The notes beneath the pieces were generated by a model. It was not told where the DNA came from, did no database searches, and was given only the letters and a program-made list of their open reading frames with translations. A stretch of 49,542 nucleotides of DNA from an uncultured Porphyromonadaceae bacterium. GTDB taxonomy: Bacteria > Bacteroidota > Bacteroidia > Bacteroidales > Muribaculaceae. The translations under genes were made by a program, and so were the position numbers. Positions 1 to 21,836 of the stretch are shown here, piece by piece. The DNA is taken from positions 1 to 49,542 of the forward strand of contig CAMWMR010000020.1 in the NCBI GenBank assembly GCA_947175425.1. The letters are read 5' to 3'. Each line of letters begins with the position of its first letter. Position 1 is the stretch's first letter.

Positions 1-107
1 TGTATATAACTCATCTGATAGCGGAACACAAGGCAGTTGTCGTTCTCCTGAAGAATGGGAAACCTCCACTTCTCCAGTACCTGCTTTATAAGTTCTTTAG
101 TCGTCAT
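1..107 (-). CDS. YbjN-like protein, N-terminal part only (runs off window)
   Basis: Reading leftwards from the ATG at 105-107, an open frame of 35 codons runs off the window edge. It begins MTTKELIKQVLEKW and continues with a FPILQENDNCLVFRY stretch, which resembles the first helix and strand of YbjN-fold (type III chaperone-like) domains. The start lies inside the 3' end of the next gene upstream (stop at 97-99), an 11-bp overlap that suggests translational coupling. The next gene is a probable paralogue, so this looks like a tandem pair. The function is unknown, and the fold assignment is my inference from pattern. Confidence 0.55.
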   Translation of the reverse strand, partial: MTTKELIKQVLEKWRFPILQENDNCLVFRYQMSYI

Positions 108-492
108 TGTCGTTGCCGGTTATGATGTTGTGGATTGTGATTGTCGAAATAGCGAGGACATGGATCATGTGTTCGATGAGTTCCTGTGTCACCTCGTTTT
201 CGCCGAGATAGTGCTGATAGTTCAGCCATACCTGATTTTCAAACATGATGTGGGGCTGCACATACTTCATCTTGCCACAGAGTTTTGCCATTGCCTCTAA
301 CACTGCAGTACGGTTGTCATCGGAGATGTCAAAAACATCTGGAGCAGTAAGGGTTATGCATCTGGCTTCTTCATCGTCAACCGTATATATTAAGGTAATC
401 CCCTCATACTCGATTCGGTAGCCGAATCCTTCAATCTCTTTGGGAATGAATCCGAGTGCGCTTAACGCGGTCAGTACATTTTCTTTTATCAT
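97..492 (-). CDS. YbjN-like small acidic protein
   Basis: This encodes a 131 aa soluble, acidic protein with no signal peptide or membrane segment. The layout (helix, then a GYRIEYEGITLIYTVDDEE strand pair, a long central helix, and an ending VWLNYQHYLGE followed by a helix) resembles YbjN-fold proteins, which share the small alpha/beta fold of type III secretion chaperones. Such domains usually bind partner proteins, and no catalytic residues are evident. It overlaps the next gene by 11 bp and follows the pseudokinase-AAA+ gene after 84 bp. It may be a chaperone or adaptor for that ATPase (inference). The family call is moderate; existence of the gene is near certain. Confidence 0.65.
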   Translation of the reverse strand: MIKENVLTALSALGFIPKEIEGFGYRIEYEGITLIYTVDDEEARCITLTAPDVFDISDDNRTAVLEAMAKLCGKMKYVQPHIMFENQVWLNYQHYLGENEVTQELIEHMIHVLAISTITIHNIITGNDNDD

Positions 493-520
493 ATCTGTTG
501 TATTAAGTTGTTATCACCGA

Positions 521-534
521 GCCGGAGTTCCGGC
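521..534. repeat. short GC-rich inverted repeat between AAA+ and YbjN-like genes
   Basis: GCCGG-AGTT-CCGGC forms a 5-bp stem with a tetraloop in an otherwise AT-rich 84-bp gap. No T-run follows on either strand, so it is not a convincing terminator. It could be an mRNA processing or stability hairpin. Confidence 0.35.
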
Positions 535-576
535 CTTTACTTATAGAGATGTTCTATTGTGTGGATTTCTATCTTT

Positions 577-2508: not shown

Positions 2509-3495
2509 TTATAGGTTAAACTTATTCCACCATGTCTTGATGGCAATACGGAATTGTTTGTTGAGGCGGGAAAACACGTTGTCTACCCATGAGTTGCGGA
2601 CGTGATACTTCTCTGCGAGCTCTTTCGACGGGGTTTCGTAGATGAAACGCTGCCTCCATATATCCTCCTGAACTTCTGTCCAGTCGAGCGACTCTATGAT
2701 GACATTTATGAGAGTATGCACATTAGCATCCCAATCCTCGCATTTGAAGAGTTTCATAAGAAGATTTCGGAAATCCTGTTGGTTTTGGCAGATATCACCC
2801 TCGTCAATACGATCGTGCCGGCTTTGGAACTGAATTTCAGGATTGATAGCCTTCTTCGAAGATAGAGCCATCTCCGCATAAGGATTCTCTGTGTTTAGCA
2901 ACTGTTCGATGAGAGTTTTTTCCGCGACTTTAAGTATCTCCTTAGCCCTATATTCGTGTCCAAAGGTCTTAAAAAAATCGTTGTCGGTCATTTTCTCGAC
3001 ATAGTAAAGTTCAAGAGCCTTATGCTGTTCAGGAACAAACACAAGGTCAACGATTGCCTGACGCAAAGAGGTATCGTCAATGCTGCGGATAGTCAGACGA
3101 TAATCGTTGGTCTTAGTGTTCCCAACGCCGTCGATATATCGCTCGTCAACAAGGAACTGGTATGTAGCCTGGGATGCTATCTTGGCCACCCATGCTTGAG
3201 GAGTGGTATCTCCCTTGAAAGCACGGAGTTTTGCCCAATCATTTTCCCAACAGGAGAGATAGGTTGCACCGGCTACATCCTCAGCCTTGATGTCAAGACC
3301 GAAAGATCGGTTGTAACTATCTGCCAACGCCTTCATCTTCGGGAGCATGGTCGTGAAGAAAAATTCCTCTGCGACATGCTCATCAGAAATAATGCTTTTT
3401 ACCAATTGCAGTGCGTTGTTGGTACGCACAACATTCACGTCGGCATTTTTTCTTTTTGTGCCACCCTTTCTTGAATTGTCTTTAGCGTATTTCAT
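2509..3495 (-). CDS. sigma-factor-like DNA-binding regulator
   Basis: This 328 aa protein has no signal peptide. Residues about 60-120 resemble sigma-70 region 2 as in ECF factors (DIKAEDVAGATYLSCWEN, then FKGDTTPQAWVAKIASQA and a short D/R-rich end). Residues about 150-195 and 275-325 each resemble region 4 helix-turn-helix modules; the last reads ETPSKELAEKYHVRNSWVDN followed by a basic helix. An ECF factor is normally about 180-200 aa, so this is large and may carry a duplicated or inserted region 4. It could instead be a sigma-like repressor. The gene follows an inverted repeat overlapping a candidate promoter, suggesting autoregulation, and leads into the pseudokinase-AAA+ gene after 12 bp. 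Confidence 0.65.
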   Translation of the reverse strand: MKYAKDNSRKGGTKRKNADVNVVRTNNALQLVKSIISDEHVAEEFFFTTMLPKMKALADSYNRSFGLDIKAEDVAGATYLSCWENDWAKLRAFKGDTTPQAWVAKIASQATYQFLVDERYIDGVGNTKTNDYRLTIRSIDDTSLRQAIVDLVFVPEQHKALELYYVEKMTDNDFFKTFGHEYRAKEILKVAEKTLIEQLLNTENPYAEMALSSKKAINPEIQFQSRHDRIDEGDICQNQQDFRNLLMKLFKCEDWDANVHTLINVIIESLDWTEVQEDIWRQRFIYETPSKELAEKYHVRNSWVDNVFSRLNKQFRIAIKTWWNKFNL

Positions 3496-3625: not shown

Positions 3626-4888
3626 TTATATGAATTTAAAAAATGGCAAATTTCTATCTATCTCTATATTTTGTTGCGGTATCTCCAGGAATTGACCATG
3701 ACCAACTTTAAGAGATATACTATCCGGGCAACCAACAAGTTCATCCATAGTATCGTTTATGTCTTTGATATAATCATCGAATCGACCTTTTCGAACTATG
3801 CCTTTTACGTTGGTTGGTCTATGAATCATCTCTTCACAGAATGAATCAATCTGTTCATAATCCTCATTAAAGATGGAACGGTACAAGCGTTTAAACTCTT
3901 CTTCATTCTCCTTGAACGACAAAGATGTAGCTTCGACACCACGAGAAAACCTATCCAAAACATACATCATGAAAATGCAATACGATGGATTATTTTTAAA
4001 CTTGACAGGTTTCTCATTACCTTTTTCATCAATAATATAGAGACAGAAACGATATTGATCCTTGAAATTCTTTTTTTGGTCGCTACTCCATTGTTTAACC
4101 TTTAAGCCATATTTGGCCGCCATTTTACGTTTTGCATTTTGCAATTTTTGAAGTAGACGTTTATCCGTTTTGGCCGCTTCTACTAAAAGTGCGACTAAGC
4201 TTTGTTGATCTATAACTCCAAGTGAATAACGAACTACTTGTGCTGCATCGGGATTCCGTTTTTCATACAAGTCGGAATATCTATCAGGGAGATTGTCGTA
4301 AACCTCACGTATATCTTTATCCGATATTTTCCTAAAAGCATCTTCTTGCGTCTGAGCCGGCAAATACCCAAGTCTGCCAATCGTTTTTGACGAACTGCGT
4401 CCTTTAAATGAAATTCTTGAATTATAATTATTTGAGCGAGATAACCTGTTGAAAAGAATCTCAACAGCAAATCGATATTCATCAGGCGCACCAAGTGCAA
4501 ACAATGCAATAGTAGATTCTATTGCGTTACGTGTGCGATTTTCAATTTCATTCATTATAGCTACCGCTGCCAAACCCAAGTCTTCTGGTTGTGCGGTTGC
4601 AATAATCATTTCGATTTCTCCGGTTACAAGGTTAGGTAGGGGCGCAATCAAATTACATTCAAGATATTTATCTAAGCCACTGTATTCCTCTTTTATACTT
4701 AAGTCGTATCTATAAAACGTAGCTTTTATATCAATCCCCTGTAATATGTCATTATATAGCCTGTGAGCATAATTACCTAATGCTTTGGGAGAGCCTAATA
4801 TGGTTACCATTCCTTCTTTTCGCAAAGGAGAGGGTATGCCTTCGGATGATATTATGCGAATATTAAAAATTGAGTTTGCAATCTTCAT
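3626..4888 (-). CDS. hypothetical protein (420 aa)
   Basis: I do not recognise this 420 aa protein. It is soluble, with no signal peptide or transmembrane segment. Residues about 1-130 look alpha/beta (beta-rich start, then a TGEIEMIIATAQPEDLG strand-turn). The middle is rich in Lys/Arg helices, and around residue 290 there is a hydrophobic helix (SYCIFMMYVLDRFSRG) of the kind seen in winged-helix C-terminal domains. It starts 2 bp after the stop of the metallopeptidase gene, so the two are surely cotranscribed. An adaptor or regulator role beside the peptidase is possible but only a guess. Confidence 0.75.
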   Translation of the reverse strand: MKIANSIFNIRIISSEGIPSPLRKEGMVTILGSPKALGNYAHRLYNDILQGIDIKATFYRYDLSIKEEYSGLDKYLECNLIAPLPNLVTGEIEMIIATAQPEDLGLAAVAIMNEIENRTRNAIESTIALFALGAPDEYRFAVEILFNRLSRSNNYNSRISFKGRSSSKTIGRLGYLPAQTQEDAFRKISDKDIREVYDNLPDRYSDLYEKRNPDAAQVVRYSLGVIDQQSLVALLVEAAKTDKRLLQKLQNAKRKMAAKYGLKVKQWSSDQKKNFKDQYRFCLYIIDEKGNEKPVKFKNNPSYCIFMMYVLDRFSRGVEATSLSFKENEEEFKRLYRSIFNEDYEQIDSFCEEMIHRPTNVKGIVRKGRFDDYIKDINDTMDELVGCPDSISLKVGHGQFLEIPQQNIEIDRNLPFFKFI

Positions 4889-4890
4889 TT

Positions 4891-5754
4891 TTATTTTCCT
4901 GATTTATACTTCTTTAAGGCCTGCTTGATTAAGTTTGTTTCTTGAAAAGATGATATTTCGATTTTTGTTATTTCTTCATGTAACGGCTCTTCCAGTGATA
5001 GACAGGCATTGTTTATATCTTTTGAATTGGTACAAAGGAAAAAATTCAGCCCCAATAATGAACTTTCTGCATCGGGTTTAATTCCTTTAGAAATCATCCA
5101 ATTGACAAAATCAAATCCTGCAACAACAGCTTTGACTCGCAAACAACCATTCGGATGAGAAAAAGAAGCTCTCATTCTGCTTACGGCATATTTATACTTA
5201 CCCGATGCTCTTAGTTTTGATGCACATCTCACACCCACAAAGAAATCACATCCAAGCTCGACGCTCCATTCCTTATTGATGCAAAAGTTTAATTCCTTAT
5301 TTGCCAAATATTGATGTGTCAACTCATGGCACATAACCGCGTCAAATGCATCTATATTATTTATTCCACACTGTTTTAACATTTCAACATTGAAACGAAT
5401 CTCGCTGCCCAACTCGGAGAACTCCGTAAATGTTATAGATGCTAAATTTTGTGGCTTATCAATAAGAATCGGAAAGGGCAAATCGAAGAAATCTGAAATT
5501 TCAGAGATACGTTCTCTCAGTATATCTTCAGAATAATCTTCTTTATCATAGAAAAGGGCATTAAAAATATTATCTTTGTGTCTACGGATATACTTGTAGA
5601 AATCATTAGATTCAATGCTCACAATAGATGAGTCTAAATTTACAACGGGCACGGTATTGTCACAGAATTCAACCTCTGCAAAAACGTTTTCAATCTGACG
5701 ATTTTCAGGGTCGTAACAATCAATGAAATTACTTTGAGTTTGTTTATCTGTCAT
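4891..5754 (-). CDS. M48-like zinc metallopeptidase
   Basis: This is a 287 aa cytoplasmic-looking protein. The motif MCHELTHQY gives HExxH (H143, E144, H147). A downstream ELGCD (E166 to D170) fits the ExxxD third zinc ligand of gluzincins, and SHPNGCLR (H200-P201, R206) resembles the HPxxxxR motif of family M48. Unlike HtpX or Ste24 it shows no transmembrane helices, so it is a soluble relative. It heads operon B and is followed after 2 bp by the unknown 420 aa gene. Its substrate is unknown; cleavage of a system component or damaged protein is possible. Alternative: another gluzincin family with convergent spacing. Confidence 0.8.
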   Translation of the reverse strand: MTDKQTQSNFIDCYDPENRQIENVFAEVEFCDNTVPVVNLDSSIVSIESNDFYKYIRRHKDNIFNALFYDKEDYSEDILRERISEISDFFDLPFPILIDKPQNLASITFTEFSELGSEIRFNVEMLKQCGINNIDAFDAVMCHELTHQYLANKELNFCINKEWSVELGCDFFVGVRCASKLRASGKYKYAVSRMRASFSHPNGCLRVKAVVAGFDFVNWMISKGIKPDAESSLLGLNFFLCTNSKDINNACLSLEEPLHEEITKIEISSFQETNLIKQALKKYKSGK

Positions 5755-5898: not shown

Positions 5899-6072
5899 TT
5901 AATTAGACAAACCATATCCTCTCATAAAATGGACACAATAGTATCCCCAACCATCCGAACTCCAAGACTTTCCGGAATATCTGCCATTCGGCAGTTGATA
6001 TCCTATATATGACCCACAATTACACCCTCGATGCTCACATGGCGCATTTGCAACATTCACATGCTTATTCAT
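5899..6072 (-). CDS. 57 aa Cys/Trp/Tyr-rich miniprotein
   Basis: This small frame starts at the ATG at 6070-6072 and ends with TAA at 5899-5901. The protein begins MNKHVNVANAPCEHRGCNC and contains four cysteines and two histidines in a CxHxxCxC ... YYCVHF arrangement, with GKSWSSDGWGYY in between. This composition is unlike random translation and suggests a small zinc- or disulfide-stabilised fold. It lies 36 bp after the 452 aa gene and is followed by the hairpin at 5857-5879, so it looks like the last gene of operon A. Function unknown. An antitoxin, a zinc finger or an exported peptide are all possible; there is no clear signal peptide. Confidence 0.7.
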   Translation of the reverse strand: MNKHVNVANAPCEHRGCNCGSYIGYQLPNGRYSGKSWSSDGWGYYCVHFMRGYGLSN

Positions 6073-6108: not shown

Positions 6109-7467
6109 CTACTGCGTAGATTCAGTAATTGCGGAACCAATCATATCGGAGAGCCCATTTAAAGTAATCCCATCGAGAAACGGATAATTTCTATTGTTAA
6201 TTATCCATTCGGACGTTAACCAAATACTTAAATTGTCTAACATATTTGAATCGTGGATATTATTATAACTCACGTCAAGATGAATTTTATCATCATAGAA
6301 TTCACAGGCTGCAGAGACTAAAGATTTGAGGTCGAACATTTCTTCGGGAAAATATTCATTCCTCATGGCATCAAGACAATTATTGTAGTCAGGGTAATGA
6401 GACATAAATAATTTGTAAAGCAATTTGTCGGGCTCCCATAACGAACAATTTATCTTTTCTGTATAAACAGGTGTACCTAAATAGAGATTGAAGTAACGTT
6501 GTATTGTACTGTAATCGGGATATGGTTGTAATTTCCCAAATATATCTTCAATACTCTTACCTTTGTCAGAGGCATCGGCACACATGGATAAGATTTGGTC
6601 AATTATATGAAAAAGGAAAAGTTTATGGAGCGCTTTATAGGTTGTCAGTAACTCTGAGAACTTGAAGCTACTATAGAGTTGCTCATGCCAGTCGGGATTA
6701 ACAGCACGGGACAAATTATAATTTGGGAAAAGTGTCATATATAGAGGTGTTGAGACTTCTTTTTCGCGTAGTGTTATTTTGCATACGCGAAAAAATCTGC
6801 CACCATTTCGAGCAATTAGGTTCGTTATCTGCGGCAGCCACATATCTTCATTCATATTTTTAAGATGATACCGCATTATCGATGCCCAATATAAAAAACA
6901 TAGATTGGCAATTTCCAGATTTGTAAGTTTTGTTGTCACCAGTTTGCTCTCAACAATTTTATATATAGCCAAAATGCTGAATGTTATTGGACGAACCATA
7001 GATTTGTCGCACAATAGTTGCGAAAGATCCGGATATGTCTTAGACTCAGAAATGTTGTTGCATATATTGAGAATTGACTCGCCAACGTTGAATATTGTCT
7101 CTTGATCTGTGTCCGATTTTGGTTTTGAACCAAACCAGCGGCTAAGACTCTGTACAGTATCTTTAAAATTTTTTCCGAATGAGAAGGAGTAGCTATATTC
7201 CAACACATTTTTAATAATACCCTCTATGCTGTCAGTTGTTTGTATGGCTGTCATTGAGGAAAGCCGGTGTAATAACCGGGTAAGTTCTATAAGTTTATCC
7301 TGACCAATGGAGGCTATAAACTTAGTAGCATAATCAGGGTTATACTGCCAATCGGGACTAAAAATTCGCTCCAAGTAATATACCGGAGGTCGGAGTTCAG
7401 GACAGACGACCTCGACTATTGTGTCGAAATCGTCTGTTACGTTAGTTACTTTTTCGAATATGTCCAT
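6109..7467 (-). CDS. hypothetical helical protein (452 aa)
   Basis: This 452 aa protein appears almost entirely alpha-helical and soluble; I recognise no family. Hydrophobic helices occur around residues 165-215 (MVRPITFSILAIYKIVES, then LEIANLCFLYWASIMRY) but they carry polar residues and do not look like clear membrane spans. It follows the membrane-hairpin protein after 3 bp and precedes the Cys-rich miniprotein, so it belongs to the dynamin operon. A scaffold role is possible (inference only). Confidence 0.75.
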   Translation of the reverse strand: MDIFEKVTNVTDDFDTIVEVVCPELRPPVYYLERIFSPDWQYNPDYATKFIASIGQDKLIELTRLLHRLSSMTAIQTTDSIEGIIKNVLEYSYSFSFGKNFKDTVQSLSRWFGSKPKSDTDQETIFNVGESILNICNNISESKTYPDLSQLLCDKSMVRPITFSILAIYKIVESKLVTTKLTNLEIANLCFLYWASIMRYHLKNMNEDMWLPQITNLIARNGGRFFRVCKITLREKEVSTPLYMTLFPNYNLSRAVNPDWHEQLYSSFKFSELLTTYKALHKLFLFHIIDQILSMCADASDKGKSIEDIFGKLQPYPDYSTIQRYFNLYLGTPVYTEKINCSLWEPDKLLYKLFMSHYPDYNNCLDAMRNEYFPEEMFDLKSLVSAACEFYDDKIHLDVSYNNIHDSNMLDNLSIWLTSEWIINNRNYPFLDGITLNGLSDMIGSAITESTQ

Positions 7468-7470: not shown

Positions 7471-8211
7471 TCAGCTAAGAGTTGCAGAAATCATCCCGTT
7501 GATTTCTTTATAAGCACTGACCTGAGAATTTACCACCCTGTCAATTTCAGCTATTGCACTTTCCGCAACCTCTTTGAACGCTTTCTTCAATTTATCAGGA
7601 GTGGAGGCATCTTCTATAATGTTTCTGTATTCTATCAATGGAAACGATAAGGTTTTAGGCACTCTTATAAAAGACTCTAACTTGAAGCGCTCGTGGGAGG
7701 AAATAATCAATGACTCGTCATTGATTATTTGAACAAGTATTGATTTATTTGACTCGGCGAATTCGAGCCAGAGGTTGGCGATTTTTTTCAGTTCTTCAAT
7801 TAAGACCGAGCTCCGGGCTACAATAAATCCGGGCGAAAGGTAAGTCTCCGTTGATTGTCGTGTCTGATACTGCGACTGGTTTTGGCTCTTGGCAGATTTG
7901 GCATTAAGCAACGAATAGGCTAAACCTGCAAAGCCTCCAACCGTTAACATCTTTGACCATAAGGCTGCCGACCCCAGCCAGCCTATACCTCCAAGTGTGA
8001 GAGCTGCCAGCGATGCGTATTTACACATCTTACTGCCACGTGTGCAAGCTCCTGCAGTGGTAGCAGGCGGAGCTGCAACAGCAACAGCATTTTCTTCTAT
8101 TTTCGATGTAATGGAAGTTTCGAATTTTATTACTGCATCGTTCACCATACCTTTTAGCCTTGATGCAAAAATTTCGGTGGACGATATTCTATCGTTGATT
8201 CTATCTATCAT
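7471..8211 (-). CDS. predicted membrane-hairpin protein downstream of dynamin
   Basis: This 246 aa protein has an N-terminal helix, an Ala/Pro/Thr-rich linker (about 40-58) and a glycine/alanine-rich hydrophobic segment at about 64-104 (SLAALTLGGIGWLGSAALW then LTVGGFAGLAYSLLN), which reads as a two-helix membrane hairpin. A helical C-terminal domain of about 120 aa follows. Its start overlaps the stop of the 787 aa dynamin by ATGA (8208-8211), so the two are translationally coupled and probably act together. It may anchor the GTPase at the membrane, but this is inference. Confidence 0.75.
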   Translation of the reverse strand: MIDRINDRISSTEIFASRLKGMVNDAVIKFETSITSKIEENAVAVAAPPATTAGACTRGSKMCKYASLAALTLGGIGWLGSAALWSKMLTVGGFAGLAYSLLNAKSAKSQNQSQYQTRQSTETYLSPGFIVARSSVLIEELKKIANLWLEFAESNKSILVQIINDESLIISSHERFKLESFIRVPKTLSFPLIEYRNIIEDASTPDKLKKAFKEVAESAIAEIDRVVNSQVSAYKEINGMISATLS

Positions 8212-14153: not shown

Positions 14154-15515
14154 TCACGAACTCTGCTCAGGAATATCATTTTCTGTTATTTCCATTAATT
14201 GAGAACGTGTGGGATTAGCAATTTTGCTGAGGCGGTTTGCCTGGCGCTGTATCACTTTTTCAAAGAGATTGCGGACATATCGTGCGTTACCGAAGTGGGC
14301 TTCTTTCTTTTGTACTTCACGGTATATGGTTTGAAACGCTTTTCTATGTGCGCCCTCAGTAATATGATATTCCCCCTTTTTAAGATTTCGGAGGAAGATT
14401 TCCATTAACTCAATATGCGAATAATCCTCGAAGTTTATATATCGGTTAAACCTTGATTGTAATCCGGGATTGGAATTAATAAACGTTTTTATCTCGTTAC
14501 TATAACCGGCAACTATTACGACAAGCCTGTCACGGTCATCTTCCATGCGCTTTAGCAGTGTATCGATTGCTTCTTGACCGAAAGAATCGTCTTTGCCTTG
14601 TGCAAGGGTATAGGCCTCGTCAATGAACAGGATGCCGTCGAGAGCTTCGTCTATCTTTGCGTTTACTTTTGGTGCTGTCTGCCCAAGATATTCTGCTACT
14701 AAATCCGCTCGTTGAACCTCAACCAAATGTCCCTTCTTCAATAGACCTATTTCCTTGTATATTGAGGCGACAATTCGTGCAACTGTTGTTTTTCCTGTTC
14801 CCGGGCTCCCGGAAAAGACACAATGATAAGATACAGATGCTTTTTTTAGCCCCTGTCTTTCTCTTTTTTGCTGGACTTCAACAAAGTTTTTTAGAGATCT
14901 AACTTCGTCTTTAACACGTGTTAATCCAATTAAACTATCCAATTCCGACATTGAATCGGTCGCTTGTCGAGTAGGCTTATTATTGAAATCAGATTTTTGC
15001 CCTGAGTTAGAACTAAGTCTGAACCGTTCCCATACCGGAGATTCGCCAAAATTACGTGACGAGTTTATGTTGTTTGCGGGCGAAGATGTGCTTTGAATTT
15101 TACTTAGTATATCAGCTGCCCAAAGATTACCATGAACTGTTGCCATTCTTAAATCTTGAATGGCCTGACCTCTATCCTGTGGCATTCCATATCCCGTATA
15201 CATAGCCTCTGCTAAAATGGTCTTTGCCCACGCATTGCCTTTGTGGGCATAGTCCCTTAGCTGATTGACGGCATCTGTCGAAATTATCGCGTTATGCCGT
15301 ACATTAGACGCCGGGTTAACATGTTGAATACACATTAGCATATCCTTGGCCCATAACACGTTTTGATTTGAGGCCATTTGCAAATAATTTATTCCATTGT
15401 TAGAGTCATTAGGTAAATCAATGCCCTCATACAATAAAACGCCATATGCTGCCAATGCGAACCAATCGCCACCTTGAGCTGCATTGAAAATTTGATTAAC
15501 TGCTTCTTGATTCAT
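14154..15515 (-). CDS. Sel1-like repeats + CbxX/EccA-type AAA+ ATPase
   Basis: This is a 453 aa protein. Residues about 1-140 hold Sel1/TPR-like helix pairs (AKTILAEAMYTGYGMPQDRG is typical). A Ser/Asn-rich linker leads to an AAA+ module of the CbxX/CfqX family: Walker A GSPGTGKTT (236-244), Walker B GILFIDEAYTL (294-304), sensor VVIVAGY (332-338) and an arginine-bearing LQSRFNRYI (352-360). Family members include CbbX (Rubisco activase) and EccA of type VII secretion, so the role is to remodel a protein complex. The N-terminal repeats probably choose the client. It sits between the DnaJ-zinc-finger pair and the dynamins, which suggests it works on one of them (inference). Confidence 0.9.
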   Translation of the reverse strand: MNQEAVNQIFNAAQGGDWFALAAYGVLLYEGIDLPNDSNNGINYLQMASNQNVLWAKDMLMCIQHVNPASNVRHNAIISTDAVNQLRDYAHKGNAWAKTILAEAMYTGYGMPQDRGQAIQDLRMATVHGNLWAADILSKIQSTSSPANNINSSRNFGESPVWERFRLSSNSGQKSDFNNKPTRQATDSMSELDSLIGLTRVKDEVRSLKNFVEVQQKRERQGLKKASVSYHCVFSGSPGTGKTTVARIVASIYKEIGLLKKGHLVEVQRADLVAEYLGQTAPKVNAKIDEALDGILFIDEAYTLAQGKDDSFGQEAIDTLLKRMEDDRDRLVVIVAGYSNEIKTFINSNPGLQSRFNRYINFEDYSHIELMEIFLRNLKKGEYHITEGAHRKAFQTIYREVQKKEAHFGNARYVRNLFEKVIQRQANRLSKIANPTRSQLMEITENDIPEQSS

Positions 15516-15518: not shown

Positions 15519-16235
15519 TTAATTCATATTTTCCAATTGCTCTAACTGGCTCTGTAAGTTTATCATCCGAATATTATACTGATGCAATAATTGATTGTAG
15601 CTCAAATAGACGCTTGAATTAGTTCTATCCATATCTTTCAATTGCATCATTCGCATATCCCATTGAGTCTTCTGAATATTTCCCTGTAAATCGGCTATGC
15701 TTTTACGAAGATTTTCAATTTGTCTTTCTTTTGCAGTTTTGCCTGTAGTACTCGCTATTCCACTTTGAACCGAACCGTTTACATTCCGTTGAGGTATATA
15801 ACATGTTTGGCAAACTCCGTTTCCATGACAAACATCACATTGCTCAATAGTATGTCCGGGCATATTGACAAAACCTTTCCCGGAGCATTTTTTGCATTTA
15901 TGAGTCCCATGACATTCCGGACACTCGCCGGGGGCATACATCTGTAAACTCAATGGCCATTTTTGTTTTATGGAATCGTTTTTTCCTAAAATCACAAACG
16001 TGTCGCCATTGCACCATTGCCAATCTATTGTGTCAAAATTAAACCTTAATGATTGTTTGGCCTTAAGTGTTTGATTTCGCCAAATCATAGGTTGAGAATA
16101 CCCGTTACTACTCATTATGGCACAATCAAAGGTCTCGCTTTGAAATAGATTGTCGCAGTTTAGAGTGAAGGAAATAGCTTTTCGCCCTCCTGCACGAAGT
16201 GAATTATACCATTCAAATTTACCTTTCAGCCCCAT
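15519..16235 (-). CDS. DnaJ-type zinc-finger protein with C-terminal coiled coil
   Basis: This 238 aa protein has a beta-rich N-terminal domain (1-100), then eight cysteines in CxxCxGxG-like repeats: C105, C108, C114, C117, C133, C136, C142 and C145 (for example CPECHGTHKC and CDVCHGNGVCQTC). This is the zinc-binding pattern of DnaJ/Hsp40, but there is no J-domain, so it cannot be a standard co-chaperone. Residues about 175-238 form a coiled coil. It is a paralogue of the preceding gene, sharing the FNLDTIDW-type and APGECP-type segments. It is followed by the AAA+ gene after 3 bp and may feed clients to it (inference). Confidence 0.85.
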   Translation of the reverse strand: MGLKGKFEWYNSLRAGGRKAISFTLNCDNLFQSETFDCAIMSSNGYSQPMIWRNQTLKAKQSLRFNFDTIDWQWCNGDTFVILGKNDSIKQKWPLSLQMYAPGECPECHGTHKCKKCSGKGFVNMPGHTIEQCDVCHGNGVCQTCYIPQRNVNGSVQSGIASTTGKTAKERQIENLRKSIADLQGNIQKTQWDMRMMQLKDMDRTNSSVYLSYNQLLHQYNIRMINLQSQLEQLENMN

Positions 16236-16245: not shown

Positions 16246-16746
16246 TTAGAACGGATTAAGGCCTGTTGGTCCAAGTCCGGGAACCGGCTTGCGGCGATTG
16301 ATGTCGCAAGTATGGCATATCCCTGTTCCACCACAATGTTCACAGGATTTCGCTTCCCATATTTTGCCCGAAGGATAAATCATGCCTTGGCCATGACAAT
16401 ATCGACATTTATGCGTGCCATGACAATCGGGACATTCGCCGGGTTTATACTCTTTGATATGGAATTGCCACTTCTTGAGGATTTTATTCTTGGAATCTAT
16501 GATTGCAGCATAATCATCTTGATACCACTCCCAATCCACAGTGTCTAAATTGAAAGCAAAGGATTGCCCGGCTTTCAATTTTACATTGCGGAAATAGAAC
16601 GGTTTCTGGCCATAGCAGTCACATATCATCACATCGACAGTCTCGCTGAACATCAAATTGGTGTTCTTTAGCACAAACTGCCAAAGCTTGATATGCCCTC
16701 CAAGTCGCTGAGGTGAATACAAACTGAAACTTCCCTTTAAACTCAT
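16246..16746 (-). CDS. DnaJ-type zinc-finger protein, short paralogue
   Basis: This 166 aa protein is closely related to the 238 aa neighbour: the same start (M-x-LKG-F), an FNLDTVDWEWY segment and the cysteine set C105, C108, C114, C117, C135, C138, C144 and C147. It lacks the C-terminal coiled coil and ends soon after the zinc site. It probably arose by tandem duplication. It follows the third amphipathic small gene after 13 bp. No J-domain and no signal peptide. The likely role is zinc-stabilised protein binding. Confidence 0.82.
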   Translation of the reverse strand: MSLKGSFSLYSPQRLGGHIKLWQFVLKNTNLMFSETVDVMICDCYGQKPFYFRNVKLKAGQSFAFNLDTVDWEWYQDDYAAIIDSKNKILKKWQFHIKEYKPGECPDCHGTHKCRYCHGQGMIYPSGKIWEAKSCEHCGGTGICHTCDINRRKPVPGLGPTGLNPF

Positions 16747-16759: not shown

Positions 16760-17077
16760 CTAATTTTTACCTAATAGGCGAGCAATTGCATCGACTACGT
16801 ATGAGAGTCCTTTTTGTACCCATTCGCCGATGGTTGAAATCATTCGTTCAAAGAACTGAGCTACTTTGGCAAATATATTAGGGAGAACTTCCCTGAGCCA
16901 ATTTTGCGCTCCTATAATAATCTCTTTGATAATGTCAGGGTCATTGGGATCGATGTCGTCTCCGGCGTTCTCGATGACATTGTCGGCCTCCATATTAAGG
17001 CTTAATGCCGTCCAGATTTGTTCATCAGACCAATCCGGATGCTTGGCTTTGATTTCGTTGAATTTAGGATTATCCAT
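16760..17077 (-). CDS. small amphipathic protein, paralogue C (105 aa)
   Basis: This is the third of three tandem paralogues. The N-terminal half carries the shared motif KHPDWSDEQIWTAL and an acidic DIDPNDPDI segment. The C-terminal half (about 55-105) is a run of amphipathic helices with many Trp/Phe/Ile/Val residues (FAKVAQFFERMISTIGEWVQ). The helices are too polar for ordinary transmembrane spans but fit membrane-surface or oligomeric pore-like helices. It lies 4 bp after paralogue B. I know no named family for it. Confidence 0.8.
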   Translation of the reverse strand: MDNPKFNEIKAKHPDWSDEQIWTALSLNMEADNVIENAGDDIDPNDPDIIKEIIIGAQNWLREVLPNIFAKVAQFFERMISTIGEWVQKGLSYVVDAIARLLGKN

Positions 17078-17081: not shown

Positions 17082-17390
17082 TTAGAAATATTTGGGTTGA
17101 CTTATGAGTTCCATGATATATTCAATTCCTTTACTTACCCAGCTTCCGATATTAGAGAGCAGGTTGCCGAAGAATTGTTTTACCTTTTCGAAGATTATTG
17201 GAAGAACTGCATCGAGCCATTCCATAGCTCCTCTGATGATTGCCTCCATGATATCAGGATCATTTTGATCTATATCAGAACCAGCTTCTTCAATTACTTT
17301 ATCAGCTTGCATATCTACACTGATTGCGGTCCAGATTTGTTCATCTGTCCAATCAGGATGTTTTTGTCTGTATTTTTCGTATTGTTCCAT
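17082..17390 (-). CDS. small amphipathic protein, paralogue B (102 aa)
   Basis: This 102 aa protein aligns end to end with paralogue C: KHPDWTDEQIWTAISVDMQA, GSDIDQNDPDIMEAI, and a C-terminal amphipathic region ending near WVSKGIEYIMELI. The high similarity of adjacent genes indicates a fairly recent duplication. No cysteine, signal peptide or enzyme motif is present. Small paralogues encoded beside GTPases and AAA+ ATPases could be the polymer or membrane-active component the machines act on (inference). Confidence 0.8.
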   Translation of the reverse strand: MEQYEKYRQKHPDWTDEQIWTAISVDMQADKVIEEAGSDIDQNDPDIMEAIIRGAMEWLDAVLPIIFEKVKQFFGNLLSNIGSWVSKGIEYIMELISQPKYF

Positions 17391-17399: not shown

Positions 17400-17774
17400 T
17401 TATGATGTGAGCCAATCCCAAAATTCGCTAAGTTTATTACCAACGTATTTAACGCCGCACATTACCATATTACCCAAAAGAGATATTGCGCTGTCCAATA
17501 CATCGAAAACGGCATAGATAAAGACTCCGGCTTCGATTAAAACACGTTTCGCTCCTTCCAAGACCTCCTTGAGCATCTTTGGGTCGTTTTCCAGTTCGGT
17601 AGCATCAATAGTGCCTCCTCCTTTCTCTACAGTCTCACCCAATGATTCTCCAATGGCGATTTTTGCCATTATTTGAGCGTGAGACCAATTCGGATGTTTC
17701 TTTTTTTCATAATCGTAGTCCTCTCGTAGAGAGGGTTTAAGATTATTATAGTCTTCTCTTTCTTTATCGGTCAT
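17400..17774 (-). CDS. small amphipathic protein, paralogue A (124 aa)
   Basis: This is the most divergent of the triplet: 124 aa, with the shared motif as KKKHPNWSHAQIMAKIA and a C-terminal hydrophobic helix (about 78-105, GVFIYAVFDVLDSAISLLGN) that is more apolar than in B and C and might insert into a membrane. It ends in Trp-rich SEFWDWLTS. It begins 3 bp after the 274 aa GTPase stop and precedes paralogue B by 9 bp. Confidence 0.78.
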   Translation of the reverse strand: MTDKEREDYNNLKPSLREDYDYEKKKHPNWSHAQIMAKIAIGESLGETVEKGGGTIDATELENDPKMLKEVLEGAKRVLIEAGVFIYAVFDVLDSAISLLGNMVMCGVKYVGNKLSEFWDWLTS

Positions 17775-17777: not shown

Positions 17778-18602
17778 TTATTTTGCAAGTTTAGCATCAC
17801 TCCATTTACCGGCTCTCTCAAGACCGTAAGTTGCGGGCCAGATCCATCCATCCTTTCCCGCTCTTGAAATTGCAAGCATGAAGTCGCGAATATTGTAATT
17901 GAATACAGCTGAGTAGAAAACAACTTGCGTGGGTTTAAGAGAAGACGCATCTCCTATTAAGTTCTCATCGATTAATTTATCGGTGAAATCATTTAACTTA
18001 ATCTTGATAACTTTCTTAAGCTTCTCTGTCGGCAGATTTTCAACAATATCCCATTTTAGCTCCGGGTCATTCGGGTCTTCTGTTTCACCAATGGCATCAA
18101 TCTTGTTAAAAGCAAGAATTATATTATCCTTTATGGAATTTTGATTGCATATTGGAAGAACTATTTCTTTCAATATGCGGCAGTCTTCACCTATATCGCG
18201 GGAATGAGCATTTATGATGTATACTATAACATCGCATTGAGGAAGAATCTGACGATAAAGTTTTTCGTACTCTACATCTTTATCAATGTCATTGTTTAGC
18301 CCGGGCATATCGTATATGGAAAGATTGAATCCGTCACGAACCGGGAAGATTTTTTCTGTTATCTCGGTAGTACCCTCGGCAATATTGGATACATAGTTTG
18401 ATAAACCGAAAACAGAGTTGAGTGTAGTCGATTTGCCCACGCCGGATTGGCCAATCACAGCAACCCTGAAGGGGCGTTCAGTCAGTCTTTTCTCCAACGC
18501 CTGACTCACGGTCTTTCGGTCAGCGTCAGAAACTTTAGCTTGGTCAAAAATCCTTGTTAAGATCTTGCCAATTACAGTTTCTTTGTCAAAGTTGGTACTC
18601 AT
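17778..18602 (-). CDS. small Era/IRG-like GTPase (274 aa)
   Basis: This is a 274 aa P-loop GTPase. G1 is GQSGVGKST (51-59), G2 lies in EGTTEITEK, G3 is DMPG (98-101), G4 is NKID (166-169) and a G5-like YSAVFNYNI follows. A helical ~45 aa N-terminal extension precedes the G domain. The C-terminus (GKDGWIWPATYGLERAGKW) resembles the tail of YfjP/YeeP-type and immunity-related-like GTPases. It overlaps the preceding GTPase gene by ATGA (18599-18602), so the two are coupled. It probably acts as a switch at the membrane for the small proteins encoded next to it (inference). Confidence 0.85.
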   Translation of the reverse strand: MSTNFDKETVIGKILTRIFDQAKVSDADRKTVSQALEKRLTERPFRVAVIGQSGVGKSTTLNSVFGLSNYVSNIAEGTTEITEKIFPVRDGFNLSIYDMPGLNNDIDKDVEYEKLYRQILPQCDVIVYIINAHSRDIGEDCRILKEIVLPICNQNSIKDNIILAFNKIDAIGETEDPNDPELKWDIVENLPTEKLKKVIKIKLNDFTDKLIDENLIGDASSLKPTQVVFYSAVFNYNIRDFMLAISRAGKDGWIWPATYGLERAGKWSDAKLAK

Positions 18603-19207
18603 AGGTTATTAGAAATTATTGTTTGCTTTAGATTTTCAATGCCATATCTACGCAAAGCACAAACTGGTATAATTTCAAATTTGTCAGGGAATTTACCTTC
18701 AAATTTTAATTTTAAAATATCAGTACGTTCTTTGATATTTTTCAAGCACTGTTCTGTTGGTGAATTTTTCTCGTTATTCCAAGGCTCATATGTGTTCTCA
18801 TTGTCGGTAACAACACGTGAGTCTATGTGATTGAGGGCAATAATATATTTTCTTTTCCGTTGACACAAAATATCTTTAAGACTCAGGATTAAACGTTGAG
18901 CCGGAGCATCAGTACGATCGAGCGTCATTACTAATACCACACAGTCCGCTATACTTGCAGCATGCTCATAATATCTGAAATATTTTTCATTGTTAGAAAA
19001 CTCGCCAATTCCCGGAGTGTCAATAGCAGTATATGCTTCAACTTCACTTTCTGCTTTTTCCAGTATAGTGGCAGTATACATTTCCTTTGTCGAGGATATA
19101 TGAGCATTTGTTGGAAAGGCAGTTCCAAACAAAGCATTTATCAATGAGGTCTTGCCATTTCCTGTTCTGCCAAGGAAGCAAATGTTGTGTGATTTGATCG
19201 TTTTCAT
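18599..19207 (-). CDS. small GTPase (202 aa, AIG1/Era-like)
   Basis: This is a minimal 202 aa G domain: G1 GRTGNGKTS (13-21), G2 region AHISSTKEM, G3 DTPG (63-66) and G4 NHID (126-129), in which the usual Lys is His. G5 is VCALRRYG. It carries no extra domains. It overlaps both neighbours by ATGA (19204-19207 and 18599-18602), making a three-gene coupled module with the membrane-anchored protein and the 274 aa GTPase, which may form a heteromer (inference). Confidence 0.85.
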   Translation of the reverse strand: MKTIKSHNICFLGRTGNGKTSLINALFGTAFPTNAHISSTKEMYTATILEKAESEVEAYTAIDTPGIGEFSNNEKYFRYYEHAASIADCVVLVMTLDRTDAPAQRLILSLKDILCQRKRKYIIALNHIDSRVVTDNENTYEPWNNEKNSPTEQCLKNIKERTDILKLKFEGKFPDKFEIIPVCALRRYGIENLKQTIISNNL

Positions 19208-19776
19208 AACTCTTGTGCTTTCCCTTTAAGGATGACCGATTTTATGCTTTTCCCATTTTCATCATAATGAGTGTAAATCCAGCAACGCGAAATTACCTTA
19301 TAGGTTTTGCCCAACTCTAAAGCCTGACCATCTACAGTGTCGTATCTGTTTAGGTGGTAAGATTGGGTCATAAATTGTATTTCATCTTCGCGTCTGATAC
19401 CCCACATGGATAAAATTCTCATTACAGCGTTGGGATTTTTGCTAATTTTTACCCATATATCCATAAGCTCTTGATTGTTAATTTCAATAATAGCATCGTT
19501 AATTACTTCATTGAATTTAACATTATTGTTCAACGAATCGAATAAGGGGTCAAGGTTGGATATATTTCTCAAAAATGCTTCTTTTGCGCTTCCTCCCGGG
19601 TGCTGAATCACAGGAATGGCAGTAGCTTTGTCAATACATTCCTCAATGGGGGACGTCTCTGTGTTATCCTGTTCATCTATAGGCTGCCGCTTCCGCTTAC
19701 CAAACAATTTGGTTACAGCAATAACTCCAACAATTCCTGCGGCGAACCATAATATGTTTTGAATTACCGGACTCAT
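19204..19776 (-). CDS. membrane-anchored protein upstream of GTPase pair (190 aa)
   Basis: This 190 aa protein has an N-terminal transmembrane helix (about 4-24, VIQNILWFAAGIVGVIAV) followed by a basic stop-transfer KRKRQ, so the bulk is probably cytoplasmic. After a linker there is a helical domain (70-130) and a beta-rich end (140-190). No family was recognised. Coupling by ATGA to the 202 aa GTPase suggests that it anchors or receives that GTPase at the inner membrane. A 73-bp gap separates it from the zinc-ribbon genes upstream. Confidence 0.75.
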   Translation of the reverse strand: MSPVIQNILWFAAGIVGVIAVTKLFGKRKRQPIDEQDNTETSPIEECIDKATAIPVIQHPGGSAKEAFLRNISNLDPLFDSLNNNVKFNEVINDAIIEINNQELMDIWVKISKNPNAVMRILSMWGIRREDEIQFMTQSYHLNRYDTVDGQALELGKTYKVISRCWIYTHYDENGKSIKSVILKGKAQEL

Positions 19777-19849: not shown

Positions 19850-20017
19850 TTACTTCTGAACTTTATGAAGTGACATCGTGTAGCCACATCGTATGCAACG
19901 AGTGCTGTTCAAAGGCTTGGCACCAAGATAGGCCGGTTGGTATAAGAAATGATAGTTATCCCTTAAATAATCATGATTGGGGCATTTCAGTCCTTTTATT
20001 TCCTGTACAGGGTTCAT
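19850..20017 (-). CDS. 55 aa zinc-ribbon-like miniprotein
   Basis: This frame starts at the ATG at 20015-20017 and stops with TAA at 19850-19852. The protein starts MNPVQEIKGLKCPNHDY and later contains RCIRCGYTM, so Cys-Pro-x-His and CxxCG make a plausible zinc ribbon. It lies 6 bp after the stop of another zinc-ribbon gene with similar logic. Function unknown; either nucleic-acid or protein binding is possible. The coding call rests on the motif pair and the tight spacing. Confidence 0.65.
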   Translation of the reverse strand: MNPVQEIKGLKCPNHDYLRDNYHFLYQPAYLGAKPLNSTRCIRCGYTMSLHKVQK

Positions 20018-20023: not shown

Positions 20024-20242
20024 TTATTTTAGATTTCTAATAAATTTATAGGAAGAAGAGTAGAGCATATCATGTCCACAATTGCCACATCGAATAATTT
20101 TTAAAGCGCCTGTGGTAACCATCATTAGTTCATCCATAGATAATTGTCCACGACAAGGTGAATCAGACACTCTGTGAATCATGAAAGTGCCGTAATCATT
20201 GTTACCACACTTCCGGCAATACATGTTATTTTGCGAAAACAT
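20024..20242 (-). CDS. 72 aa zinc-ribbon protein
   Basis: This 72 aa protein has two knuckles, YCRKCGNNDY near residue 8 and IRCGNCGHDM near residue 50, the standard CxxC ... CxxC zinc ribbon. The segment between is polar and contains a further cysteine. No membrane segment. It follows the DUF445 gene by 13 bp. A partner- or RNA-binding role is likely for this fold; the specific function is unknown. Confidence 0.75.
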   Translation of the reverse strand: MFSQNNMYCRKCGNNDYGTFMIHRVSDSPCRGQLSMDELMMVTTGALKIIRCGNCGHDMLYSSSYKFIRNLK

Positions 20243-20255
20243 AAATACGATATTA

Positions 20256-21167
20256 CTAAAATAGCAAGTTTATACATCCCATCAGGAAGCCGAGCAATGC
20301 ACCCAGCCAGACGATGGCTTTAAGTTCTCGATTCATGACCTCAAGGATAAGCTTTTCCGATTCCTTTACATCCATATCGTTAATGCGCGATTCTATAATC
20401 TTGCTTATATTGAGGGTGTCAAGGATTCTTGGGAGTTGCTCGGTCACCAAGGTCTTGTATAAGGATAGAATGGTCAATTCTACCTTTTCTATCTGTTTTT
20501 CTCTTCCTAGGAAGAGATTTTTCATCGGAACTTCCATAAAGTTCTTTATCTGGTCATCAATAAGCGTCCCAACCATCTCCTGAGAGTGGTTGGATAACAT
20601 CTCGTTGATATTCTTCGCAAGCAAGTTCTCAACAGGCGTTGCAATCATGGCGATGAACTGGTCTGCACCAAACATACCAAACACGCCTCCTTTGACTTTC
20701 GCTAAAACATGAGCAACTGCAATATTGGCTATTTTTGTGCCGAGTTGGGCTGATGAAAGAGCACTGTGTATCTGAGCAGATAAATCATTAGATACGCTTT
20801 CGCTCATATACTTTACATCTTCAGCAGAAAGATAGTGGCTAAGGAATTGTTCAACGGGTTCATTATTAGATTTTTGTGTATTGACAAAATCATTAATTCC
20901 ATTTTTTATTTTGTCAATCATCTCATCAGCCAACAAAGTCTTTTCCAGCACATCGCGATTCATGAGGTTCTTACTGATTGCATTTCCAACAGAGGTTGCA
21001 ATCCGAGATTTTTCCTTAGGAATCAGGCCGGGAGTGAAGGGTACTTTGTGCTCAAAGATATATTTTGCAGTCCTTGGACGGAACAACATTCTAATTGCAA
21101 TGTCATTCGTGATATAACCAATCACAGCTCCAACTAAAGGACGAACGATATATGCCAGCTCAATCAT
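20256..21167 (-). CDS. DUF445-family membrane protein
   Basis: This is a 303 aa protein of the DUF445 (YheB/YjiN-like) type. The N-terminal block has the family signature GYITNDIAIRMLFRPR and VPFTPGLIPKEKSRIA. The middle is a long helical region with amphipathic character, and the C-terminus is a hydrophobic helix (IVWLGALLGFLMGCINLLF). The family is membrane-associated with no settled biochemical role. It overlaps the UpxY stop by 8 bp, which puts it in the same transcript, in contrast to its usual place as a stand-alone housekeeping gene. Confidence 0.88.
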   Translation of the reverse strand: MIELAYIVRPLVGAVIGYITNDIAIRMLFRPRTAKYIFEHKVPFTPGLIPKEKSRIATSVGNAISKNLMNRDVLEKTLLADEMIDKIKNGINDFVNTQKSNNEPVEQFLSHYLSAEDVKYMSESVSNDLSAQIHSALSSAQLGTKIANIAVAHVLAKVKGGVFGMFGADQFIAMIATPVENLLAKNINEMLSNHSQEMVGTLIDDQIKNFMEVPMKNLFLGREKQIEKVELTILSLYKTLVTEQLPRILDTLNISKIIESRINDMDVKESEKLILEVMNRELKAIVWLGALLGFLMGCINLLF

Positions 21168-21738
21168 TTATGACTTCTAAGTCAAGAGGGTTTATTGTTA
21201 CGGTTGCGCCACCAAGTATATCTATTGAAACCACAAGTTTTGTTTGCCCGTCATTAGTCCTGACAACTTCGCCTTCCAATCCTGATAAATTTCCTCTAAT
21301 AACCCGAACCTTGTCCAATTGCTTAAAACCGGTTTGTTCAAATACAACAGGTTCATTAGATTCTTTAAGCATGAATTTCAATTGAGAAATCTGTTTTTCG
21401 GGAATACGAGCCGGTTCTTTATGACCGGGGAGTGTTAAAACTTTAATTATTAAAGCGTGGTTCCTGACAAACTGTGCGTCCTCATCGTCAACCTTGACAA
21501 ACACCACCATGGGGATTATCACGCAATCAACTTTTTTCTTCCTGTCAGACCACTGCTTGACAACTGTCTGAATTGGAGCATAGGATTCGATGTTTAAATT
21601 AGCAAGTTCCGAGGCAACCTTCTTCTCACTTCGAGGCCTTGTATATACTGCTATCCAATATTTTGAGCGCGCTTCGCGGTCGTCAGTCCCATTATCTGAC
21701 GAAATGCCTGTCTGAGAAGAAAACCCTTGCGATTCCAT
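21160..21738 (-). CDS. UpxY-type NusG paralogue (transcription antiterminator)
   Basis: This is a 192 aa protein from the ATG at 21736-21738 (MESQGFSS). A GTG at 21795 would extend it but would lie almost at the predicted transcription start. Residues about 30-125 are a NusG N-terminal domain (KYWIAVYTRPRSEKKVASEL, YAPIQ, IIPMVVFVKV). The C-terminus is a KOW domain (DKVRVIRGNLSGLEGEVV). UpxY proteins in Bacteroides load onto RNA polymerase at the 5' end of capsule operons and prevent early termination. Here the downstream genes are GTPases and ATPases, not glycosyltransferases. It is the first gene of operon A and probably lets polymerase read the ~16 kb unit. Confidence 0.9.
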   Translation of the reverse strand: MESQGFSSQTGISSDNGTDDREARSKYWIAVYTRPRSEKKVASELANLNIESYAPIQTVVKQWSDRKKKVDCVIIPMVVFVKVDDEDAQFVRNHALIIKVLTLPGHKEPARIPEKQISQLKFMLKESNEPVVFEQTGFKQLDKVRVIRGNLSGLEGEVVRTNDGQTKLVVSIDILGGATVTINPLDLEVIND

Positions 21739-21806
21739 TGCGGGAGGTTTGTGCGTTATAAAGGTTTTATATAGCTCTCCCTTAAAAGGAGACACTCACT
21801 CGAACG

Positions 21807-21836
21807 CAAATATACAAATAATTTGGGAAATACAAA
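21807..21836 (-). promoter_or_regulatory. promoter of the UpxY operon
   Basis: Read leftwards: TTTG (21836-21833), 18 bp, then TATATTTG (21814-21807), a full match to TAnnTTTG. A start near 21800 gives a ~60-nt leader before the MESQ start codon. Confidence 0.75.

Follow-up and report, generated by a model that had tools for sequence, protein, structure and literature searches.

A Conserved Modular Locus of Bacteroidales Combining Zinc Proteins, AAA+ ATPases, and Exchangeable GTPase Genes

A contig from an uncultured Porphyromonadaceae bacterium (family Muribaculaceae; CAMWMR010000020.1) carries a long run of GTPase, AAA+ ATPase, and zinc-protein genes that are all read in one direction, and this raises the question whether these genes form a system and what such a system would be for. 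The window that we analyzed is this entire contig (G000:C20; 49,542 bases), one of 64 in a genome of 2.5 Mb. A first-pass annotation made from the letters of the sequence had described a one-strand block of about 22 genes; ORF calling and translation of the window recovered 22 open reading frames (ORFs), all on the minus strand and spanning positions 21795 down to 97, and family scans confirmed that the block is real. We are highly confident that it represents a conserved modular locus without an existing name. No named system with this gene set was found in family libraries (including Pfam, NCBIfam, and PADLOC) or in the open PubMed Central literature, in agreement with the earlier annotation.

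Conservation and Gene Order of the Locus

The locus was traced with a profile built from four zinc proteins, which recovered 14 loci from the genome contigs; the small GTPase gtp1, used as a query of genome contigs, gave no match. Locus L044, whose two zinc matches are weak and which has no partner gene, was left out before counting, as was the second zinc gene in G337 (G337b); L038 and L043 belong to one genome. Besides the window, 12 Bacteroidales genomes carry the pair of zinc proteins (znA and znB in the window) together with partner genes, in a largely collinear neighborhood. The first-pass annotation had asked for a test of co-occurrence in order across Bacteroidota, and within Bacteroidales such co-occurrence was seen; it had held that homologues scattered independently, or a match to a named locus, would speak against its proposal, and we observed neither. 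The carriers are labelled Lentimicrobiaceae, Bacteroidaceae, Alistipes, Prevotella, Paludibacteraceae, or unplaced Bacteroidales. Their records name a ruminant host in six cases and a horse-derived species name in two, and three bear RUG numbers, which we take to denote rumen genomes.

Across the 12 genomes (G329 represented by its contigs a and b), relatives of the peptidase are found in 10, CbxX/Sel1 and DUF1232 proteins in 9 each, TY chaperones in 7, AAA+ proteins of the kinAAA family and p420 in 6 each, small GTPases in 5, and the sigma-like protein in 4; amphipathic proteins, mem, SIR2, and PP2C occur in 3 each, dynamins and ADP-ribosylglycohydrolase in 2 each, DUF445 in 1, and UpxY in none. 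Since several loci (e.g., G333, G331, and G329) stop at contig ends, these counts are lower bounds. Gene order was compared with that of the window after exclusion of G171 and G329c (no zinc protein) and of contig G329a; for families with several copies, the copy closest to the zinc pair was used. Of the gene-family pairs, 220 were concordant and 53 discordant, and 220 was reached in 0 of 20,000 within-locus shuffles, a statistic that ignores the shared descent of the loci. The discordance stems from DUF1232, PP2C, the place of the GTPases in G339 and G329, and an upstream AAA-chaperone pair in G342. The strand of the zinc pair is shared by 114 of 115 labelled genes.

A tree of 25 zinc proteins places znA and znB in separate groups (support 93/92 each), and the sister pairs G333/G334, G339/G329, and G340/G341 are mirrored in both, as expected if the pair was inherited together; G332, G335, and G337 also cluster together in both groups. 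Two long L042 branches in this tree are uncertain, and the znA of L036 was omitted from the alignment because its frame looks broken. G333 is labelled Bacteroidaceae and its sister G334 Rikenellaceae, and horizontal transfer may have contributed to the spread of the locus. Among 295 genomes of the order, three gave a zinc match (one to a short zinc region only, i.e., two full-length) and four a peptidase match (one weak, i.e., three strong); both genomes with a full-length zinc protein also carry the peptidase.

Organization of the Block

The families named by the first-pass annotation were recovered: three dynamin-like GTPases (Dynamin_N), two small GTPases (MMR_HSR1/AIG1-like), CbxX-type and Cdc48-like AAA+ ATPases (by Pfam and NCBIfam), zinc proteins of the DnaJ type without a J domain, a metallopeptidase-like protein, and three amphipathic paralogues. 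Absent from it were a sigma-like protein, a TY/YbjN-type chaperone-like protein, and an UpxY antiterminator (Table 1). Its frequent overlaps of 4-11 bp proved fewer than claimed: among 21 junctions, four overlap by 4-8 bases and one by 122 (the start of dyn2 is uncertain), 11 are gaps of 2-15 bases, and five are gaps of 47-354 bases (including 247 and 354), small Cys-containing ORFs sitting within two of the long gaps. The shared promoters that it had invoked found no support, as sigma-70-type sites numbered 50 against a shuffle mean of 53 in a scan that does not model Bacteroidales promoters. Just upstream of upxy lies a tRNA-Ser gene; after it come a hairpin resembling a terminator and an element similar to TAnnTTTG, a Bacteroidales promoter motif. 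The GC content in 2-kb windows is 36-45% in the block and 47-52% in the contig past 30 kb.

Table 1. Genes of the block in the order of transcription, with window coordinates
Gene	Position	Strand	Description
upxy	21160..21795	-	UpxY-family transcription antiterminator, first gene; alternative ATG at 21738; NF033644
duf445	20256..21167	-	DUF445 membrane protein; PF04286 3e-39
zr	20024..20242	-	zinc-ribbon-like, 72 amino acids (aa); Pfam zinc-ribbon matches sub-threshold
small ORF	19850..20017	-	55 aa, Cys-containing; in zr-mem gap; ORF only
mem	19204..19776	-	hydrophobic stretch at N-terminus (hydropathy); relatives in L032, L033, L042
gtp2	18599..19207	-	septin/AIG1-like small GTPase; PF01926 2e-12
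gtp1	17778..18602	-	septin/AIG1-like small GTPase; PF01926 3e-14
amC	17400..17774	-	amphipathic-helix paralogue
amB	17082..17390	-	amphipathic-helix paralogue
amA	16760..17077	-	amphipathic-helix paralogue
znB	16246..16746	-	core; Ig-like domain and DnaJ-type zinc region
znA	15519..16235	-	core; znB paralogue with coiled-coil-like C-terminal tail
cbx	14154..15515	-	Sel1-CbxX/SpoVK-type AAA+ ATPase; PF00004 1e-19, PF17866 7e-19, TIGR02881 2e-92
dyn3	12403..14106	-	dynamin-like GTPase; PF00350 9e-16
dyn2	10587..12524	-	dynamin-like GTPase, ankyrin-like C-terminus; start uncertain; PF00350 2e-14
dyn1	8208..10571	-	dynamin-like GTPase; PF00350 5e-19
p246	7471..8211	-	without Pfam match; window only among compared loci
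p452	6109..7467	-	without Pfam match; window only among compared loci
small ORF	5899..6072	-	57 aa, Cys-containing; ORF only
pep	4891..5754	-	core; HExxH metallopeptidase-like
p420	3626..4888	-	core orphan; without Pfam match; relatives in 6/12 other genomes
sig	2509..3495	-	ECF-sigma-like; TIGR02937 3.5e-8, below cut-off
kinAAA	577..2496	-	pseudokinase and Cdc48-like AAA+ fusion; PF00004 1e-31, PF00069 7e-8
caps1	97..492	-	TY/YbjN-type chaperone-like; based on YbjN/TY-Chap1 matches of family members
caps2 (start)	1..107	-	rest on C49, with SIR2, PP2C, DUF1232 (L086:3-3525)

The left contig end cuts the block, which runs on beyond the window. Because this end and the end of a second contig of the same genome, C49, share an exact overlap of 55 identical bases, the two most likely adjoin. 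C49 adds about 3.5 kb, in the order second chaperone (caps2), 149-aa protein, SIR2, 214-aa protein, PP2C, and DUF1232; beyond DUF1232 come one small hydrophobic protein and a pair of short ORFs, and then metabolic genes. The split caps2 was detected by a small-chaperone profile search and SIR2 by Pfam. PP2C and DUF1232 were named by similarity to genes of G332 (40% and 48%), the PP2C of G332 being matched by Pfam and a DUF1232 relative of another locus being matched by Pfam below the cut-off. The 149-aa protein between caps2 and SIR2 (L086:591-1040) has a sub-threshold FtsZ_C match (E 6e-5).

Core Genes and Exchangeable Cassettes

The recurring core of the locus comprises the zinc pair, the peptidase, a Sel1 or Sel1-CbxX protein, p420, the sigma-like protein, an AAA+ protein (fused to a pseudokinase in the window), and putative TY chaperones. 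The dynamins, the small GTPases together with the amphipathic proteins, and DUF1232 look like cassettes that can be exchanged, given that dynamins accompany the zinc pair in only 2/12 and amphipathic proteins in only 3/12 of the other genomes. The collinear neighborhood agrees with the proposal of one machine, but a single fixed machine is not supported. The position of the dynamins varies as well, since they follow cbx in the window, precede the zinc pair in G334, and follow it in G336. A run of mem, GTPase, amphipathic, zinc, zinc, and cbx genes is common to the window, L032, L033, and L042. CbxX-type ATPases, TY chaperones, kinase-AAA+ proteins, and dynamin trios are also found away from the core.

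Could unrelated accessory operons, one of GTPases and dynamins and another of chaperones and AAA+ proteins, have become neighbors by chance accretion of an island? The rarity of the two cassettes, the gaps of 247 and 354 bases, and the dynamin trios that stand alone on Escherichia coli and Calditerrivibrio plasmids would agree with this; the recurrence of the run from mem to cbx in three other loci and the dynamins flanking the zinc pair in G334 and G336 argue against it, and we consider such a chance assembly improbable.

Two partial arrangements were seen besides. A second partial locus in Liminaster (reverse complement of L091, 3911-11735; G329:C63) contains p420, a sigma-like gene, two AAA+ genes, a chaperone, and WG-repeat genes, and no zinc pair. 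At L087:17154-19250 (G247:C33), an AAA+ gene (76% identical to that of G342) is followed by two TY chaperones, the other core genes being missing; this is perhaps a minimal unit.

Proteins of the Core

The zinc proteins znA and znB are 44% identical to each other and carry paired CxxC motifs. The Pfam result contains no J domain for them, so that they do not qualify as DnaJ proper, and their zinc region matches that of DnaJ (1exk) weakly (E 0.06). In pep, the motif HELTH lies at residue 143, and H143, E144, H147, and E166 are invariant across 15 sequences; by these residues, pep is an HExxH metallopeptidase-like protein, for which catalysis is predicted. It has a profile match to ERAP1 (2e-5). 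Neither p420 nor the Ig-DnaJ-zinc proteins nor the peptidase has a gathering-level Pfam match.

The AAA+ ATPase cbx passes the Pfam thresholds for AAA and AAA_lid_6. Its TIGR02881 match (E 2e-92, 309 bits) lies under the cut-off of 423, and cbx stays under the NCBIfam equivalog cut-offs for CbbX, SpoVK, and EccA (309/423, 265/467, and 235/459 bits). Short Sel1 relatives of 169-170 aa in L037, L039, and L043 are without the AAA+ part. Members of the TY family matched YbjN (5 of 10) and TY-Chap1 (4 of 10) with a best E of about 1e-4, caps1 itself being unmatched. The match of sig to TIGR02937 (33 bits, cut-off 43) falls short of an ECF sigma factor, and we call it ECF-sigma-like.

The EccA match of cbx (1e-78) and the YbjN and TY-Chap1 matches of the chaperone family could point to a locus that secretes or assembles some surface or extracellular structure, with TY/CesT-type proteins as secretion chaperones and the Sel1-CbxX ATPase as an EccA-like component; UpxY regulators control capsule operons, which would also suit such a role. 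In the Pfam results for the block and the singly scanned neighbors, no channel, EccB/C/D protein, or component of a type III secretion system was found, and this explanation is very unlikely. Two more specific candidates were rejected: type VII secretion, because the EccA-like ATPase stands alone, and a gas-vesicle locus, because cbx gave only a weak GvpN match.

The AAA+ half of kinAAA is Cdc48-like by its Walker A (GPQGCGKT) and Walker B (ILIFDE) motifs and a PF17862 match (6e-7); a degenerate protein-kinase domain (PF00069 7e-8) forms the N-terminus. In the alignment, the VAxK lysine, the HRD Asp, and the DFG Asp are all missing from the window protein, which makes an active kinase improper as a label; by its motifs, the domain is a pseudokinase. 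Among six kinase-AAA+ fusions of gut Bacteroidales, the DFG Asp is lost in all six and the HRD Asp in five; the fusion of G171 retains the lysine and the HRD Asp, and that of G332 has a short N-terminus. Of six relatives from other Bacteroidota, only that of G551 retains all three motifs. The family adds a clear example of kinase-to-pseudokinase decay on an AAA+ ATPase.

GTPases, Amphipathic Proteins, and Membrane Parts

With 69, 54, and 59 bits against PF00350 (gathering score 27), dyn1-3 are bacterial dynamin-like GTPases by their G domain, and action at a membrane is predicted for them. G1 and G3 motifs are present in all five GTPases; a clear G4 motif is seen in gtp1, gtp2, and dyn1, whereas dyn3 has an altered one and no G4 could be located around its usual position in dyn2, whose C-terminus gave Ank matches below or near the cut-off. 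Relatives of gtp1 (57-61% identical) and gtp2 (49-53%) each occur in three loci. The three amphipathic proteins are homologues, two of them sharing 56% and 31% identity with the first, and have helical moments of 0.57-0.66 compared to shuffle means of 0.44-0.45 (sd 0.07-0.08). Hydropathy indicates one hydrophobic stretch in dyn3 and further ones in DUF445 and DUF1232; duf445 has a 46% identical relative at the matching position in L032. With 143 bits against a cut-off of 100 for NF033644, upxy qualifies as an UpxY antiterminator; none of the other loci compared has it.

A dyn1 match was found in 6 of 61 genomes (own included) and in none of the phage records. The order dyn3-dyn2-dyn1 is repeated on a 4.4-kb contig of a genome of the same genus (G010), and the three-dynamin sets on the E. 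coli and Calditerrivibrio plasmids have no block genes recognized beside them. On the E. coli plasmid (L016:7264-14852), three tandem dynamins are followed by a CFI-box-CTERM protein; in another genome of the same genus (L009:11955-17710; G005:C11), three large tandem ORFs match dynamins, and no core genes were recognized adjacent to them.

Membrane-associated proteins of this kind could serve an envelope-stress or membrane-repair response whose target is not phage. Damaged inner membrane would then be bound and sealed by the GTPases, dynamins, and amphipathic proteins, and the AAA+ proteins, chaperones, and peptidase would clear damaged proteins associated with the membrane. Besides the dynamins, amphipathic helices, and hydrophobic stretches of DUF445 and DUF1232, the sigma-like gene within the block and flanks poor in known defense genes speak for repair, and PspA membrane-stress systems are reported to have CesT-type chaperones and AAA+ ATPases alongside them (PMC11237479). 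SIR2, TIR, and ADP-ribosylglycohydrolase as companions and a rare, patchy distribution would be unusual for housekeeping repair, however, and Pfam recognized no PspA/Snf7 protein among 20 block proteins. We rate this explanation as rather unlikely.

Relation to Known Systems

The block may belong with the NTPase- and chaperone-based multi-gene conflict systems, of which no named member that we found carries the same set. Like the block, the GTPase-centric (GAP1) and vWA-MoxR conflict systems of Kaur et al. (2020; PMC7159879) consist of many genes and combine GTPase switches and AAA+ chaperones with Hsp70/DnaJ, a kinase with PP2C, zinc ribbons, and effectors that can be exchanged. In contrast to these, the block contains no GAP1, GASH, DO-GTPase, or MoxR-vWA by Pfam (E 0.01; 20 block proteins, DUF445, three C49 proteins, and 20 neighbors). 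Pfam, we assume, includes models for GAP1, GASH, and DO-GTPase.

Leo dynamin systems, presumably the same as those called Eleos, share neighboring dynamin-like GTPases with the block, and LeoA/LeoBC models match all five window GTPases (7e-12 to 7e-7). The best stretches, however, span no more than about 29% of a model rather than its full length, and the block has three dynamins and a chaperone/AAA+/peptidase core. ARG-centric ADP-ribose systems with TY chaperones are described from actinobacteria, planctomycetes, and proteobacteria by Iyer et al. (2022; PMC9503650); the block has in common with them proteins that may be of the TY-Chap1/YbjN type and, near G331 and G336, an ADP-ribosylglycohydrolase with a phosphatase. 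The window's own locus and 10 of the 12 others are without ADP-ribosylglycohydrolase, a sirtuin being present on C49, and the locus is thus not a member of that class as described there. The anti-phage ATPase IetA resembles the block in an AAA+ domain (E 1e-30), but the likeness is limited to this domain (98 bits against an NCBIfam cut-off of 510).

Matches to kinAAA at 1e-60 were found in 8 of 395 genomes of the phylum (own included); six of the seven others were inspected, G576 being outside the sample. Hsp70 adjoins the kinAAA relative in five of these six (G488, G357, G689, G561, and G551); G727 has no Hsp70 beside it. Most runs include CFI-box-like and coiled-coil proteins, and TerB-like proteins are clear in G488, G357, G689, and Haliscomenobacter. 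On the Haliscomenobacter plasmid pHALHY02 (L105:8539-16064), the run with Hsp70, TerB, and CFI-box directly adjoins BREX genes. The Hsp70/kinase-AAA+ run of Haliscomenobacter and five genomes resembles the block in its fusion, 30% identical to the window protein, and in the Hsp70 of G332. It differs in its less decayed kinase motifs and in that neither the zinc pair nor the peptidase, p420, a dynamin, or a small GTPase was recognized next to it.

Proposed Function

We tentatively read the block, at slightly less than even chances, as a modular multi-gene system, accessory in gut Bacteroidales, that serves in conflict. The conflict would most likely be with phage or rivals, and membrane damage control is a close alternative; the first-pass annotation had named membrane remodeling, repair, or anti-phage action as roles that would fit dynamins. 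A conflict role fits because of rarity, module exchange, integrase and TraG neighbors, and SIR2, TIR, and ADP-ribosylglycohydrolase companions. The SIR2 companion is present in the own genome and in three of the 12 others; G336 has a TIR+SIR2-like protein, and ADP-ribosylglycohydrolase with a phosphatase occurs in G336 and G331. A tyrosine integrase lies near the locus of G333, with a relative in G334, and a TraG-like protein in G335. The BREX genes beside the kinAAA relative of Haliscomenobacter and the recurrent Hsp70 neighbors of this family also speak for conflict. The bacterial dynamin DynA is reported to postpone lysis after phage infection (PMC8844932).

The protein families suggest recognition, unfolding, and cleavage of proteins near the membrane. 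The core would be a protein-handling apparatus of substrate- or partner-binding zinc proteins, TY/YbjN chaperones, a pseudokinase-AAA+ unfoldase, a Sel1-CbxX motor, and the HExxH peptidase, controlled as a long operon by the ECF-sigma-like protein and, in the window, by the UpxY antiterminator. The dynamin trio, the two small GTPases with three amphipathic-helix proteins, DUF1232, and DUF445 would be cassettes of the inner membrane. Zinc and TY adaptors may first bind damaged or foreign protein, which the AAA+ motors would then remodel or pass to the peptidase, and the GTPase and dynamin modules would finally assemble on the membrane and seal, constrict, or permeabilize it. SIR2 and PP2C could tune or reset the system.

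Several observations weigh against a conflict system of this kind. Dynamins and amphipathic proteins are missing from most related loci, and core families are not exclusive to it: TY-chaperone matches occur in 14 of the 295 order genomes; G171, the third genome with a strong peptidase match, carries consecutive genes for CbxX, a DUF1232 relative, the peptidase, kinAAA, and the chaperone and has no zinc protein; and a 56% identical CbxX protein lies on a Bacteroides finegoldii plasmid without the block. A search of 72,556 plasmid records with znA was negative, and among viral contigs the zinc profile picked up just four matches, all weak and partial. Known defense genes are few in the flanks, where 148 genes (of 151 chosen) matched four PADLOC models at 1e-10 with one gene each; since two of these models stand for RmuC and DNA polymerase, two candidates remain. 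The PADLOC matches within the block itself (IetA, PD-T4-6, and LeoA/LeoBC) reflect generic ATPase, kinase, and GTPase similarity. Finally, the host records are mostly contigs of metagenome-assembled genomes, with some loci cut by contig ends. Carriage by phages or plasmids was also considered and is unsupported, as the plasmid search with znA, the phage search with dyn1, and the viral search with the zinc profile all gave no good match.

A bolder version of the conflict reading, to which we give little credence, is a machine in which a pseudokinase receptor on a Cdc48-type unfoldase would sense foreign or damaged proteins with the zinc and TY adaptors and the peptidase would trigger the dynamin and amphipathic membrane modules; if true, its layout would parallel the pseudokinase- and GTPase-gated membrane executioners of eukaryotic immunity. 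The locus places several bacterial dynamins and AIG1-like GTPases, along with p420, the Ig-DnaJ-zinc proteins, and the HExxH peptidase, in a gene set that recurs and can be tested, with a chaperone/unfoldase core and swappable membrane modules in gut Bacteroidales.

Further Observations on Neighboring Genes

In G332, an Hsp70-type protein lies upstream of the block, and what we take to be a RelA/SpoT-like protein (36316-38181 of the extended locus) lies downstream of the chaperones on the same strand. One HSP70 match appeared in the flanks among the 25 of 109 Pfam families listed. CFI-box, membrane coiled-coil, Hsp70, kinase-AAA+, and mostly TerB genes form a run in six Bacteroidota records (L105 and L116-L120), some of them cut by contig ends; the term CFI-box returned no paper in the open PubMed Central literature. 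Outside the block, the window carries a minus-strand ORF of 2,479 aa at 31364-38803.

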